This document shows, piece after piece, positions 24,702 through 28,963 of a stretch of DNA of 64,000 nucleotides. The notes under the pieces are model-generated. The model ran no database searches and was not told the DNA's origin. It was given only the letters and a program-made list of their open reading frames with translations. Position 1 is the first letter of the stretch, and each line of letters starts with the position of its first letter. Made by a program: the position numbers and the translations under genes. The stretch comes from Candidatus Palauibacter rhopaloidicola (GTDB taxonomy: Bacteria > Gemmatimonadota > Gemmatimonadetes > Palauibacterales > Palauibacteraceae), in NCBI GenBank assembly GCA_026914155.1, contig JAPPGH010000039.1, positions 186,001-250,000 of the forward strand. The letters run 5' to 3'.

Positions 24702-25214
24702 ATGAAACGACCCCGACCCGACGAGCACGGCGACTACTACGCCGTCTACATCGACCGCGTGCCGGACGACCGGCCGCTCGTCGACGTCCTCGCCGAGGCG
24801 CCCGACGCGCTCGACGCGCTTCTCGGGGACCTCCCGGCCGAGCGCGAGGACTTCGCCTACGAACCCGGGAAGTGGACGTGCCGCGAGGTCTTGGGGCACG
24901 TGATCGATGCCGAGCGGCTCTTCTCCTACCGCGCGCTTCACATCGCGCGCGCGGATGCGGCGGAGCTGCCGGGGATGGATCAGGACGAATGGGCCGCGGC
25001 CTCGAACGCGGGCGGCCGTCCCATCCCGGAACTGCTGCGTGAATTCCGGGCGCTGCGCACCGCGAACGCGGCCTTCTTCGGCTCGCTCGACGAAGACACG
25101 CTCTCGCGCCGAGGCGTCGCGAGCGGTGCCGAGTGCACGGTACGGGCGCTCATCCATATCATCGCCGGTCACGAGCTTCACCACCGGGACATGCTGCGGA
25201 AGCGATACCTGTGA
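24702..25214 (+). CDS. DinB family protein
   Basis: The 170-residue product is a four-helix DinB-like protein: DALDALLGDLPAEREDFAY, KWTCREVLGHVIDAERLFSY, and a C-terminal HIIAGHELHHRDMLRKRY. The three metal His positions expected for the fold are present (GHVIDAE, and two in GHELHH). Family knowledge: DinB/YfiT proteins include thiol-dependent transferases using bacillithiol or mycothiol, and many are uncharacterised. ATG 24702 is only 46 bases from the divergent VOC start. The next gene, the ArsC-like one with the in-frame TGA, follows after 10 bases; a thiol/redox pairing would be consistent. Confidence 0.87.
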   Translation: MKRPRPDEHGDYYAVYIDRVPDDRPLVDVLAEAPDALDALLGDLPAEREDFAYEPGKWTCREVLGHVIDAERLFSYRALHIARADAAELPGMDQDEWAAASNAGGRPIPELLREFRALRTANAAFFGSLDEDTLSRRGVASGAECTVRALIHIIAGHELHHRDMLRKRYL

Positions 25215-25224
25215 GGAGATCGAG

Positions 25225-25548
25225 ATGACGGACGTTGCGCTCTTCTACCAGCGCCCCGGCTGAACGAGCTGCAAACGCACCCGTGCGGTGTTCGAAGAGA
25301 TCGGCGCGACGATCGCGGAGGAACGATCCGCCACGAAGGCGCCGTTGACGGATGATGACGTGCGGGAGCTCCTCGCGGCCGCCGAGCGGGTGGTCATCGC
25401 CCGCGGGAGGAGTCGGCGCGACCTGGATCCCGGTGAGACCGAACTCGACGCGCTGAAGGGGCCCACGGGGAAGTACCGCGCGCCGATCGTGCTGGCGGGG
25501 ACCACGCTGCTGGTCGGTTTCAACGCCGAGGCGCTCGCCGAACTGTAA
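25225..25548 (+). CDS. ArsC/glutaredoxin-like protein with in-frame TGA, candidate selenoprotein
   Basis: AGGAG precedes ATG 25225. Translation gives MTDVALFYQRPG, then TGA at 25261, then TSCKRTRAVFEE and a clean frame to 25548 (107 codons including TGA). The TGA falls exactly where ArsC/Spx/glutaredoxin-fold proteins carry the first Cys of CxxC; the second Cys (position 16) is kept. The rest fits the fold, including the late strand YRAPIVLAGTTLLVGF. TGA is an ordinary stop for many genes here, so code reassignment is unlikely. Either TGA is read as selenocysteine (UxxC) or a Cys codon has mutated very recently. Selenocysteine-containing ArsC/Grx-like proteins are known from marine metagenomes. 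The selenocysteine machinery is not in this window. Confidence 0.72.
25261..25314 (+). promoter_or_regulatory. possible bacterial SECIS region after TGA
   Basis: Two hairpins can be drawn downstream of the TGA. One has arms CGCA (25276-25279) and TGCG (25284-25287) around loop CCCG, 16 bases after the TGA, with an outer GAAC/GTTC pair (25262-25265, 25290-25293). The other has arms GATCG (25299-25303) and CGATC (25310-25314) around GCGCGA, 40 bases after the TGA, with G first in the loop. The first has the right distance but no early loop G; the second has the G but is slightly far. Support is therefore partial. Confidence 0.3.
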
Positions 25549-25599: not shown

Positions 25600-25983
25600 T
25601 CAGCGGGCGGTCTGCACCGTGAAGCCGAAGTCGCCCCGGATGGTGTGGCCGTCCTGCGCCATGGCCCGCCACATGACCTCGTAGTCGCCATCCGCGAGCG
25701 TCTCGCTCACGTCCAGCACGACGACGCTCGAATCGTCCTCTTGGGCGGTCGCCGGCTCCAGGTCGAGGGGTTCGCCCCCTTTCGGCAGGAGGCGGACGGA
25801 CGTCCCGGCCATCTGCGGCGCTTCCGTGAACCACAACGTGACGGTCGGGGGGCTGATCGACACCGTCTCATCCTTCTTCGGAAAGGAAGCCTCGAGAGAG
25901 AGGTGGGCACAGACGAAGACGCCCGCCGTCGTCAACGTAGCGGTCGCCAGCACGACCGCCCGGTCTCGAATCCAGCCAGCCAT
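25600..25983 (-). CDS. CopC-domain exported protein
   Basis: The 127-residue product has a signal anchor (VVLATATLTTAGVFVCAHL) and a CopC-type beta-barrel. It shows SFPKKDETVSISPPTVTLWF, TSVRLLPKGG and the terminal YEVMWRAMAQDGHTIRGDFG, where the DGH element is a family hallmark. Family knowledge: CopC proteins bind copper in the periplasm, often beside CopD. Here no CopD is adjacent and the usual N-terminal ligand is less clear, since the only His near the mature start is in CAHLSLE. ATG 25983 gives the expected length. It is divergent from the metal-uptake genes starting at 26226. Confidence 0.82.
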   Translation of the reverse strand: MAGWIRDRAVVLATATLTTAGVFVCAHLSLEASFPKKDETVSISPPTVTLWFTEAPQMAGTSVRLLPKGGEPLDLEPATAQEDDSSVVVLDVSETLADGDYEVMWRAMAQDGHTIRGDFGFTVQTAR

Positions 25984-26225: not shown

Positions 26226-26588
26226 GTGAACCGCACTTTTCCTCAACAGCCGCGGGATCTTCGCCGGTTCGGCGTTCGGGCCATCGTCCTCCTTCAGGCA
26301 GCGGCGTTCGCCGTGCTGCCGGCGGTGGATGCGGTACTTGAGGCCGGAGCACCAAACGCCGTCGCGCACGTTGAAATTGAAGGGGAGTCCAGCGAGTACG
26401 GAGACTCCGGGCACAACCACCTGCTGTGCCACCTGTCTCGCACGGTGTCGCTGGGTTTCCCCCTCCTGATTCCGATCGATCTGTCTCTGGTAGCCGAAAC
26501 CAGCCCCGGCACCCCGACCGCGAACGCCTGGCAACGCCGCCCCATCCCGCCCGGCGGGAGCGGTCCGAGAGCTCCCCCTCCCGCCTGA
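26226..26588 (+). CDS. small exported His/Cys-containing protein (DUF2946-like)
   Basis: The 120-residue product starts with GTG 26226 and has a hydrophobic leader (FGVRAIVLLQAAAFAVLPAV). The mature part has HVEIEGESSEYGDSGHNH followed by LLCHLSRTV and a hydrophobic stretch, and ends RAPPPA. This outline (His cluster, CxxC-like site, late hydrophobic segment, RAPP end) resembles small DUF2946-type proteins encoded before metal TonB receptors. The second Cys usual in such proteins is missing (LLCHLS). It precedes the TonB receptor by 158 bases. Real gene probable but not certain; a metal-related role is inferred. Confidence 0.6.
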   Translation: MNRTFPQQPRDLRRFGVRAIVLLQAAAFAVLPAVDAVLEAGAPNAVAHVEIEGESSEYGDSGHNHLLCHLSRTVSLGFPLLIPIDLSLVAETSPGTPTANAWQRRPIPPGGSGPRAPPPA

Positions 26589-26746
26589 CCCGCTGCCGGG
26601 CCCTCGTCCCGGAAGCCCCCGACCGCCCCGCGGGAGGCGGACCGCAAGCCTCCCGAAACACCCGTTACCCGCTGAAGCATCTCGGCGAGGCGCACGGCGC
26701 TCTTCGAGGAAGAGCGGTCGCCGGCGCGTCTCGAAGAAGGCTGTCC

Positions 26747-28963
26747 ATGGCGATAAGGCGTCTGGCCGGTCTCATCACGGCCACATTGGCAATGGCTGTC
26801 GGAGCCACCGGCTCGTCCGCGCAGGTCGAACACCCGGGCGAGATCGAGGGCGTCGTGCGCGATGCCGACTCCGACGAGCCTCTCGCCGGCGCCCTGGTCT
26901 CCATCGTTGCGTCGGGTCGGACGGCGGTCTCGCACGGCGACGGCACGTTCCATGTCCCGGTGCCGGGCCCGCGCGTCTACACGGTGCGGGTCGAACGCCT
27001 GGGTTACCGCACGGTGTCGCTGGAAGTCAATGCGTCGCGGGAGGAGGTTGTGGTGGTGGAGATGGAAGCCCATCCCATCTCCCTGCCGGATCTCGTGGTC
27101 ACGGGGTCCGTCGTGGCCCGCGCGGCCAACGAAGTGCTGCGTCCGACCAGCGTATTCGCGGGGGAGGATCTGCAGCGTCGGCTGGCCGGAACCCTGGCGG
27201 AAACGCTGGCCTCCGAGCCTGGACTGGCGGTGAGCAGCATGGGGCCCAGCTCGGTGCATCCCGTGATCCGAGGCCTCAGCGGAGATCGCATCCTGATGCT
27301 CGAGGACGGGGAACGGGTCGGCGACGAGTTTGCGAGCGGTCCCGACCACGCCACGGCGATCGATCCATCGTCGGCGCGCCGCGTCGAGGTGATCCGCGGG
27401 CCGGGTGCGATTCTCTACGGAAGCAACGCGCTGGGCGGCGTCATCAACGTCGTCCGGGATGACGTGCCCTCATCCGTACCGCACCACCTTACGGGCGCGT
27501 TCACCCTGCACGGACAGAGCGTTAGCAACGCGGCGAGCGGGAGCCTGAATCTCACGTATGGCCTGACGGACCGCATTCCCGTGCGGCTGGAACTCGGGCT
27601 CCGCAGCAGCGGCGACCTGGAGACGCCGGTCGGGCCCCTGCAGAACACGAGCACGGACATCCGCGAGATTTCCGGCGGGACCTCCTGGGTGGACGATTGG
27701 GGCCATGCCGGCGCGACCTTCCGCTACTACGGCAACGACTACGGCATTCCCGGGGGGTTCGTCGGAGGTCACGAGGCGGGGGTCCGCGTCGAGATGGAGC
27801 GGATCGCGACCAGGCTGCGCAGCGTGCTGCGGCCGCGGGGGATCGTAGAGAGCATCGAGGTCGATGCGGGACACACCTGGTACGAGCACAGGGAGATCGA
27901 GCCCCCCGACATCCTGGGAACGCTCTTCGAGCGCCAGACGGTGAGCGGCGAGGTTCTCGCCCGCCACGGCGGCTGGGGCCCTTTTTCCTCGGGAGGCGTC
28001 GGAACGCGGGCTTCATGGGAAGACTTCGGATTCGGAGGCAGCCTCTTCACGCCGAACTCCACGCAGACGTCCCTCGCCGTATTCGCGCTGGAAGAGGTCG
28101 ATCTGAGTCCGATACGCCTGGAAGCGGGCCTCCGCTACGACTGGGTACGCGTGCGACCCGACCAGGAGGACCCTTCCTCCGACATCGGCCACATCCGGGA
28201 GAGGTCGTTCGGCGCGGCATCCGGATCACTGGGGGCCCTGGCACAGCTCACGCAGGGCTTCACGGTGGGCGCTTCCGTCGCCCGGGCCTTCCGCACCCCG
28301 AGCGTCAACGAACTCTTCTCGGAAGGTCCCCACCTGGCGGCCTACGCCTTCGAGGTGGGGAACCCGTCGCTCGAGACGGAGCGCGGGATCGGGATCGACC
28401 TGTTCGCGCGCCTTACGGGAGACCGGCTGAACGCCGAGCTGACGTGGTTCCGCAACGCCATCGCGGACTACGTCTTCCCGCTCGAGACGGGAGAGCTGAG
28501 CCGCGTGCGGCTGCCGATCTTCCAGTTCCAGGGAGAAGACGCCGTGCTCACGGGATTCGAGAGCGCGCTCGAGTGGGCGCCGTTCGGAGCTCTGACCGTG
28601 GAGGCCGTGGCTTCGTACGTCCAGGGCAGGATCGAAGCGACGGACGAACCGCTTCCGCTGATCCCGCCGCTGCAGGGGCGCTTCGCCGTTGGCTACGCGC
28701 CGCGCACCTGGTTCGTCGAAGCCGAAACGCGGGTTGCGGCTCGACAGGACCGGATCGGGCCCTTCGAGGACCCCACCGATGGGTATGCCGTTTTCGATCT
28801 CTCCGCCGGACTGCGGATCACGGTCATGGGGCGGCTGAACGTGATCACCGTGCGGGGAGAGAACCTTGGCAATGCAGTGTACAGAAACCACCTGTCGCGC
28901 GTGAAGGAGATCATGCCCGAAGCCGGGAGATCCATCAGCGTGGCCTATCGCGTTGTCTTCTAG
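26747..28963 (+). CDS. TonB-dependent outer membrane receptor, ZnuD-like
   Basis: The 738-residue product has a signal peptide, an N-terminal carboxypeptidase-regulatory-like domain (IEGVVRDADSDEPLAGALVS), a plug, and a 22-strand-type barrel ending in aromatic SVAYRVVF. The plug has HPVIRGLSGDRILMLEDGER, the segment SGPDHATAIDPSSARRVEV and GPGAILYGSNALGGVINVV. These resemble zinc or copper receptors of the ZnuD type. It imports a ligand using TonB energy across the outer membrane. AAGG lies 6-7 bases before ATG 26747. Flanking CopC-like and His-rich proteins support a metal ligand; which metal is unknown. Confidence 0.9.
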   Translation: MAIRRLAGLITATLAMAVGATGSSAQVEHPGEIEGVVRDADSDEPLAGALVSIVASGRTAVSHGDGTFHVPVPGPRVYTVRVERLGYRTVSLEVNASREEVVVVEMEAHPISLPDLVVTGSVVARAANEVLRPTSVFAGEDLQRRLAGTLAETLASEPGLAVSSMGPSSVHPVIRGLSGDRILMLEDGERVGDEFASGPDHATAIDPSSARRVEVIRGPGAILYGSNALGGVINVVRDDVPSSVPHHLTGAFTLHGQSVSNAASGSLNLTYGLTDRIPVRLELGLRSSGDLETPVGPLQNTSTDIREISGGTSWVDDWGHAGATFRYYGNDYGIPGGFVGGHEAGVRVEMERIATRLRSVLRPRGIVESIEVDAGHTWYEHREIEPPDILGTLFERQTVSGEVLARHGGWGPFSSGGVGTRASWEDFGFGGSLFTPNSTQTSLAVFALEEVDLSPIRLEAGLRYDWVRVRPDQEDPSSDIGHIRERSFGAASGSLGALAQLTQGFTVGASVARAFRTPSVNELFSEGPHLAAYAFEVGNPSLETERGIGIDLFARLTGDRLNAELTWFRNAIADYVFPLETGELSRVRLPIFQFQGEDAVLTGFESALEWAPFGALTVEAVASYVQGRIEATDEPLPLIPPLQGRFAVGYAPRTWFVEAETRVAARQDRIGPFEDPTDGYAVFDLSAGLRITVMGRLNVITVRGENLGNAVYRNHLSRVKEIMPEAGRSISVAYRVVF

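Follow-up and report, generated by a model that had tools for sequence, protein, structure and literature searches.

Selenoproteins related to arsenate reductase have been catalogued in several surveys: ArsC-like selenoproteins were tabulated in 2006 (PMC1794560), a 2008 table of the GOS marine metagenome includes 'Arsenate reductase 2' (cd03032, UxxC; PMC2398784), and an arsenate reductase-like UxxC entry is present in a 2022 paper (PMC9312934). Both NCBIfam, as NF041106 (ArsC_rel_Se_1, 'ArsC family (seleno)protein'), and the table of a 2026 review, as 'Arsenate reductase-like protein, UxxC', already list this family among selenoproteins; the functions of nearly all such proteins are described in the review as largely uncharacterised (PMC13188914). 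By sequence, the closest solved structures belong to Spx (PDB 1z3e, 3gfk, 7f75).

The window, which is the whole 64,000-nucleotide stretch of DNA analysed here, comes from a draft genome of Candidatus Palauibacter rhopaloidicola (4,116,161 bases in 63 contigs, 95.76% complete with 6.11% contamination). It carries a gene that is an added member of this known selenoprotein family and belongs to a less recognised branch of it. The encoded protein shares the UxxC motif and the superfamily with NF041106, whereas its branch lacks about six mid-protein residues and has a candidate hairpin loop 4 nt nearer the TGA. By its description, the GOS 'Arsenate reductase 2' appears to be the same kind of protein, with the same motif class and superfamily label. 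The superfamily fold and the position of the redox pair are common to Spx and the window protein. The Palauibacterales paper (PMC10469786) makes no mention of selenium, arsenic or ArsC; the only matching word is an author's name.

Reading frame and conservation of the TGA codon

The features of the locus are collected in Table 1. The elements that the preliminary description had listed, namely an AGGAG, an ATG, 12 codons, a TGA, T-S-C and a 94-codon frame, were all confirmed from the sequence: the start codon occupies 25225-25227, the TGA is codon 13, and the 94 sense codons opening with T-S-C are closed by a TAA at 25546-25548. As an antisense frame of 148 codons in the list of open reading frames overlaps the gene, the 94-codon open frame alone carries little weight, and chance is excluded because the TGA itself and both its flanks are conserved in many genomes.

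Table 1. Positions of the features at the locus, in window coordinates
Feature	Position	Strand	Basis
DinB_2/mycothiol-S-transferase-like gene, upstream	24702..25214	+	PF12867 75.3 bits, PF04978 27.4 bits
AGGAG ribosome-binding site, overlapping the upstream stop codon by one base (its first A)	25214..25218	+	by eye
Predicted selenoprotein gene, 107 residues and stop, UTSC motif, Spx/ArsC-like thioredoxin fold	25225..25548	+	frame reading, family profiles, alignment, model
In-frame TGA, residue 13, predicted selenocysteine codon; matches the first Cys of Spx CxxC in the alignment	25261..25263	+	conserved TGA and machinery
Candidate SECIS hairpin GCACC-CGTGC-GGTGT, 5 pairs, outermost G-U	25277..25291	+	branch conservation

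Relatives were sought in genome contigs with six peptide patterns, and since none of these spanned codon 13 the TGA was not selected for by the search. The 19 relatives belong to Gemmatimonadota, Acidobacteriota, Planctomycetota, Rokuibacteriota and Myxococcota, with one MAG labelled Deltaproteobacteria, and the closest named ones are MAGs titled Candidatus Palauibacter, Gemmatimonadales and Gemmatimonadetes; a TGA is located at the aligned codon in all 19, across several phyla. Among 298 Gemmatimonadota genomes, 76 match at E 1e-5, and 69 of the 76 have exactly one TGA, whereas the other seven (8 places) have none and hold distant Cys paralogues with motifs such as CTTC and CSTC, which score 22-31 bits; the full-length TGA members all reach at least 91. 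Two TGA members give partial matches, L110 with 45 bits over model positions 2-59 and L111 with 39 bits over positions 2-41. In Acidobacteriota, 27 of 297 genomes match at E 1e-10, a threshold so strict that distant Cys paralogues would go unlisted, and all 27 contain one TGA. The gene was found in 13 of the 14 genomes drawn from the genus (the present one included), with TGA in each of the 13, while the 14th gave no match. The TGA loci amount to 115, or about 106 genomes after the removal of repeats: the genomes of L021-L028 are also among the Gemmatimonadota set, seven of the eight with the same tRNA-Sec coordinates in both sets (L025 is inferred to be G210), and L119 lies in the genome of L029. 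Identical sequences were counted once wherever they are called distinct. UxxC is present in 114 of the 115 loci. The one exception, L123 in genome G539 of the Acidobacteriota search, has UxxS, with UTSS in place of UTSC; Cys16 is thus replaced by Ser in a single locus, which implies that the resolving Cys is not strictly required.

The main alternative named in the preliminary description was a recent Cys-to-stop mutation, and such a mutation or a sequencing error, leaving a pseudogene or a misread gene, would be in keeping with a lone TGA one base away from a Cys codon. However, every close relative found, in several phyla, has TGA at this codon with the protein conserved on both sides, and the probability of this explanation is negligible. 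If the TGA were a true stop followed by a downstream restart, for example at GTG 25288, where a listed open reading frame starts, the product would be a C-terminal protein devoid of selenocysteine. In the structural model, a protein begun at codon 22 lacks the active site together with the first strand and 8 of the 13 residues of the first helix; a restart is also contradicted by Y8, R10, residue 13 and C16, none of which varies among the 20 aligned relatives, and is very improbable. Pseudogene, sequencing error and downstream restart were rejected in view of the conservation of the TGA together with the flanking protein. A weak second match to the protein was also observed in the same genome (L002, C41:10195-10413, minus strand), stop-free and with 32% identity over residues 30-103 (E 7.2e-4), which is possibly a distant paralogue or a chance match.

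Selenocysteine machinery and the downstream hairpin

SelA, SelB, SelD and tRNA-Sec are all encoded in the genome that carries the gene, each above its family cut-off and each on a contig of the draft assembly other than that of the selenoprotein gene. Profile searches gave 500.7 bits for SelA, 369.7 bits for SelB and 369.3 bits for SelD, and the single tRNA-Sec, at 79.7 bits above the Rfam cut-off, was also called by ARAGORN (tRNA-SeC, anticodon tca) and shares a contig with SelB at a distance of about 5.4 kb. The SelD gene (L040, C7:90616-91542, minus strand) has an in-frame TGA within GUACK; SelD itself is probably a selenoprotein, and the genome would therefore probably make at least two.

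The distribution of the machinery was compared with that of the TGA across Gemmatimonadota, where 65 of 69 TGA genomes had a tRNA-Sec, as against 160 of the 229 others (odds ratio 7.0; Fisher p 6.9e-6, which is only indicative as the shared ancestry of the genomes means that their independence is overstated). All four TGA genomes with no tRNA-Sec match have SelB above the cut-off, and SelB is above the cut-off in none of the seven genomes whose sole matches are Cys paralogues, one of which has a tRNA-Sec match (E 2.8e-9). For the 19 named relatives, 8 of which repeat genomes already counted, tRNA-Sec was present in the genomes of 16 and was not found in those of L025, L034 and L038. The preliminary description had read the TGA as selenocysteine and had pointed to the machinery and to the homologues as the checks; all four components were found, and the codon is TGA in 13 of 13 gene-bearing genus genomes, 19 of 19 relatives and 27 of 27 Acidobacteriota, so that its reading is supported on both counts.

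Bacterial SECIS elements normally lie just downstream of the UGA and present a small apical loop with a G in its first two bases. The candidate hairpin agrees with this rule on the strength of conservation in its own branch and covariation elsewhere in the family, and not of the fold energy of the window. Its loop starts 18 nt after the TGA in the window sequence, and the five pairs remain standard in every one of the 17 distinct branch sequences, drawn from the genus and from seven Acidobacteriota loci, where the sole variation is G-C/G-U at the outermost pair; since the helix is otherwise invariant, this represents conservation and not covariation. Judged by fold energy, the window stretch does not surpass shuffled sequences (z 0.76, with 153 of 200 folding at least as well), and Rfam at the gathering threshold gave no match in the window. 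An alternative hairpin 5 nt further on was rejected, with 86% of cells paired in the genus branch against 100%.

Outside the window branch the loop begins 4 nt further from the TGA, and 55 distinct sequences from these other branches display changes on both sides of the helix: pair 21-35 is GC in 42, TA in 10 and CG in 3 and is never broken, pair 23-33 has AT in 45 and GC in 6 and is broken in 4, while the outermost pair, 19-37, fails in 52 of the 55 and pair 20-36 in 9. Of all cells in the seven pairs tested, 83% are paired, whereas 1000 shuffles gave a mean of 77% and never more than 80%, and none of six slid versions exceeded 56%; three pairs show two-sided change, a number equalled by one of the six slid versions. 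Across 70 distinct sequences and six pairs, 388 of 420 cells are standard, a count that includes Acidobacteriota sequences with a slightly shifted helix. Mean synonymous diversity among the 12 distinct genus sequences is 0.09 at codons 14-24 against 0.18 elsewhere, and the low values extend past the hairpin to about codon 33, with the lowest 11-codon windows starting at codons 16-23.

Because the machinery is present, the TGA is kept across phyla and the hairpin is conserved, the locus can with high confidence be considered the gene of a selenoprotein of 107 residues that has a thioredoxin fold and belongs to the Spx/ArsC superfamily, and whose UGA would be decoded as selenocysteine by SelB and tRNA-Sec with the aid of the hairpin just downstream.

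Family, fold and proposed chemistry

With the TGA read through, the protein scores 24.9 bits against the Pfam ArsC family (PF03960, gathering cut-off 24), and its best family match is NF041106 (77.3 bits, E 1.2e-21), where residues 7-103 cover positions 4-106 of the 107 in the model and the active site has UxxC, although this score is below the cut-off of 85. A scan of ten proteins with the same model placed six branch members between 72.9 and 92.1 bits, five of the six below 85, and four relatives from Planctomycetota, Myxococcota and Rokuibacteriota between 123 and 140, and the relatives above and below the cut-off share one alignment and tree. The best solved relative by sequence profile is Spx (E 7.6e-10), which outscores the ArsC-named entries, and residue 13 aligns with the first Cys of its CxxC, in agreement with the earlier placing of the TGA at the active-site Cys of a UxxC motif. 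An AlphaFold2 model from 20 sequences (mean pLDDT 89.3) was used in a Foldseek search, where Spx was best by E-value (2.8e-4) with TM-scores of 0.54-0.59 and rmsd of 5.7-7.1 angstrom, and the arsenate reductase 3f0i superposed slightly better (TM-score 0.62, rmsd 3.2 angstrom) with a poorer E-value (0.092). The fold search accordingly provides superfamily placement only, as the Spx rmsd is high, TM-scores are between 0.5 and 0.6 and 3f0i superposes slightly better. The earlier label 'ArsC/glutaredoxin-like' can now be sharpened to the Spx/ArsC superfamily, with Spx nearest by sequence.

The canonical ArsC motif is Cys-x3-Arg. A selenium-dependent arsenate reductase would be in line with the Pfam match, which is barely over its cut-off, with the better superposition of 3f0i, and with the 'arsenate reductase-like' name given to the family in the review table (PMC13188914). 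On the other hand, the motif of the family is UxxC, the Arg is absent in 20 of 20 aligned members, Spx entries outscore the ArsC-named ones by sequence, and no arsenic-resistance family was detected among the nine neighbouring proteins scanned, three of which matched nothing; arsenate reduction is thus an unlikely function. The proximity of Spx both in sequence and by Foldseek E-value, together with the alignment of UxxC on CxxC, might also point to a regulator of RNA polymerase that senses redox state as Spx does and has selenocysteine in its switch. In Spx, Gly52, and hence the contact with alphaCTD, is reported to be absolutely required for trxB activation, and Arg92 binds sulfate in one crystal form (PMC2801614). 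Where Spx has Cys, the Gly52 loop and Arg92, the window protein has a predicted Sec, no Gly52 loop and Ala in place of Arg92: the loop has four residues fewer, and no Gly, in 15 of 15 aligned members, Arg92 is likewise Ala in the aligned family members, and the NCBIfam Spx model yields 28 bits against a cut-off of 123. Spx-type regulation is disfavoured because of the shortened, Gly-less loop and the Arg92 to Ala replacement, and is quite improbable.

A thiol/selenol oxidoreductase is most likely, ahead of both the arsenate reductase and the Spx-type transcription factor, because Spx is nearest by sequence yet its polymerase-contact loop is missing. Three features of the family alignment would fit a thioredoxin-fold oxidoreductase, namely the UxxC pair, R85-A86-P87, which is conserved, and the stretch LLVGFNAE. 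In the chemistry that we consider fairly probable, the selenolate of Sec13 would attack an oxidised substrate, which may be a disulfide, a mixed disulfide with a low-molecular-weight thiol or another electrophile, Cys16 would resolve the adduct as a selenenylsulfide, and a cellular thiol system would then reduce the selenenylsulfide.

Origin, neighbourhood and meaning of the branch

Within the taxonomic family of the window organism, the 298-genome Gemmatimonadota search recovered the gene only in its own genus, in 13 of 14 genomes, and in none of the 8 genomes of other genera of the family or the 5 from elsewhere in the order. A phylogeny of 67 sequences (115 columns, midpoint rooting, with 18 of 51 other Gemmatimonadota sequences chosen by hand) resolves the genus as one group with support of 100/99, nested with Acidobacteriota and apart from other Gemmatimonadota; support is 98/87 for its grouping with L120, 98/82 with three more and 100/99 for the branch of 19. 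The partial matches L110 and L111, as well as L091, were excluded from the first tree. The nesting of the genus branch among Acidobacteriota sequences suggests horizontal acquisition by the genus from an Acidobacteriota-like donor.

The DinB_2 gene ends 10 nt before the ATG of the selenoprotein gene, and the two are likely co-transcribed. This neighbour is upstream in 21 of 21 genus loci (13 genomes) and only in the genus among the 88 loci searched; at L093, a second DinB-like frame was recognised by eye 545 nt past the start of the relative. A neighbour common to all lineages was not seen by eye in a GC3-based list of 21 of the 88 loci, chosen by hand, and the clustering of open reading frames in the neighbourhoods was spoiled by spurious frames. 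Downstream of the selenoprotein gene are a CopC-domain protein (25606-25983, minus strand) and a TonB-dependent receptor (26426-28960, plus strand), which possibly take part in copper handling. The bacillithiol synthesis enzyme BshA is encoded in the same genome (530.2 bits, cut-off 273.7), and this, with the DinB_2 neighbour in all 21 genus loci, makes a putative link to bacillithiol possible. A selenium-dependent, bacillithiol-linked redox enzyme may then be envisaged, in which an Acidobacteriota-type Sec protein was acquired by the genus ancestor and set beside a DinB/thiol-S-transferase-like gene, the pair removing or reducing low-molecular-weight thiol adducts; this proposal is tentative and rather unlikely.

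Gene calling with TGA as a stop would be predicted to miss or truncate the selenoprotein gene, and the NCBIfam cut-off meant for such proteins misses five of the six branch members scanned. The about 106 genomes with TGA at one codon offer a basis for refining the NF041106 model, and the protein is small and tractable, with an adjoining thiol-transferase-like gene that provides a first testable idea on its function.
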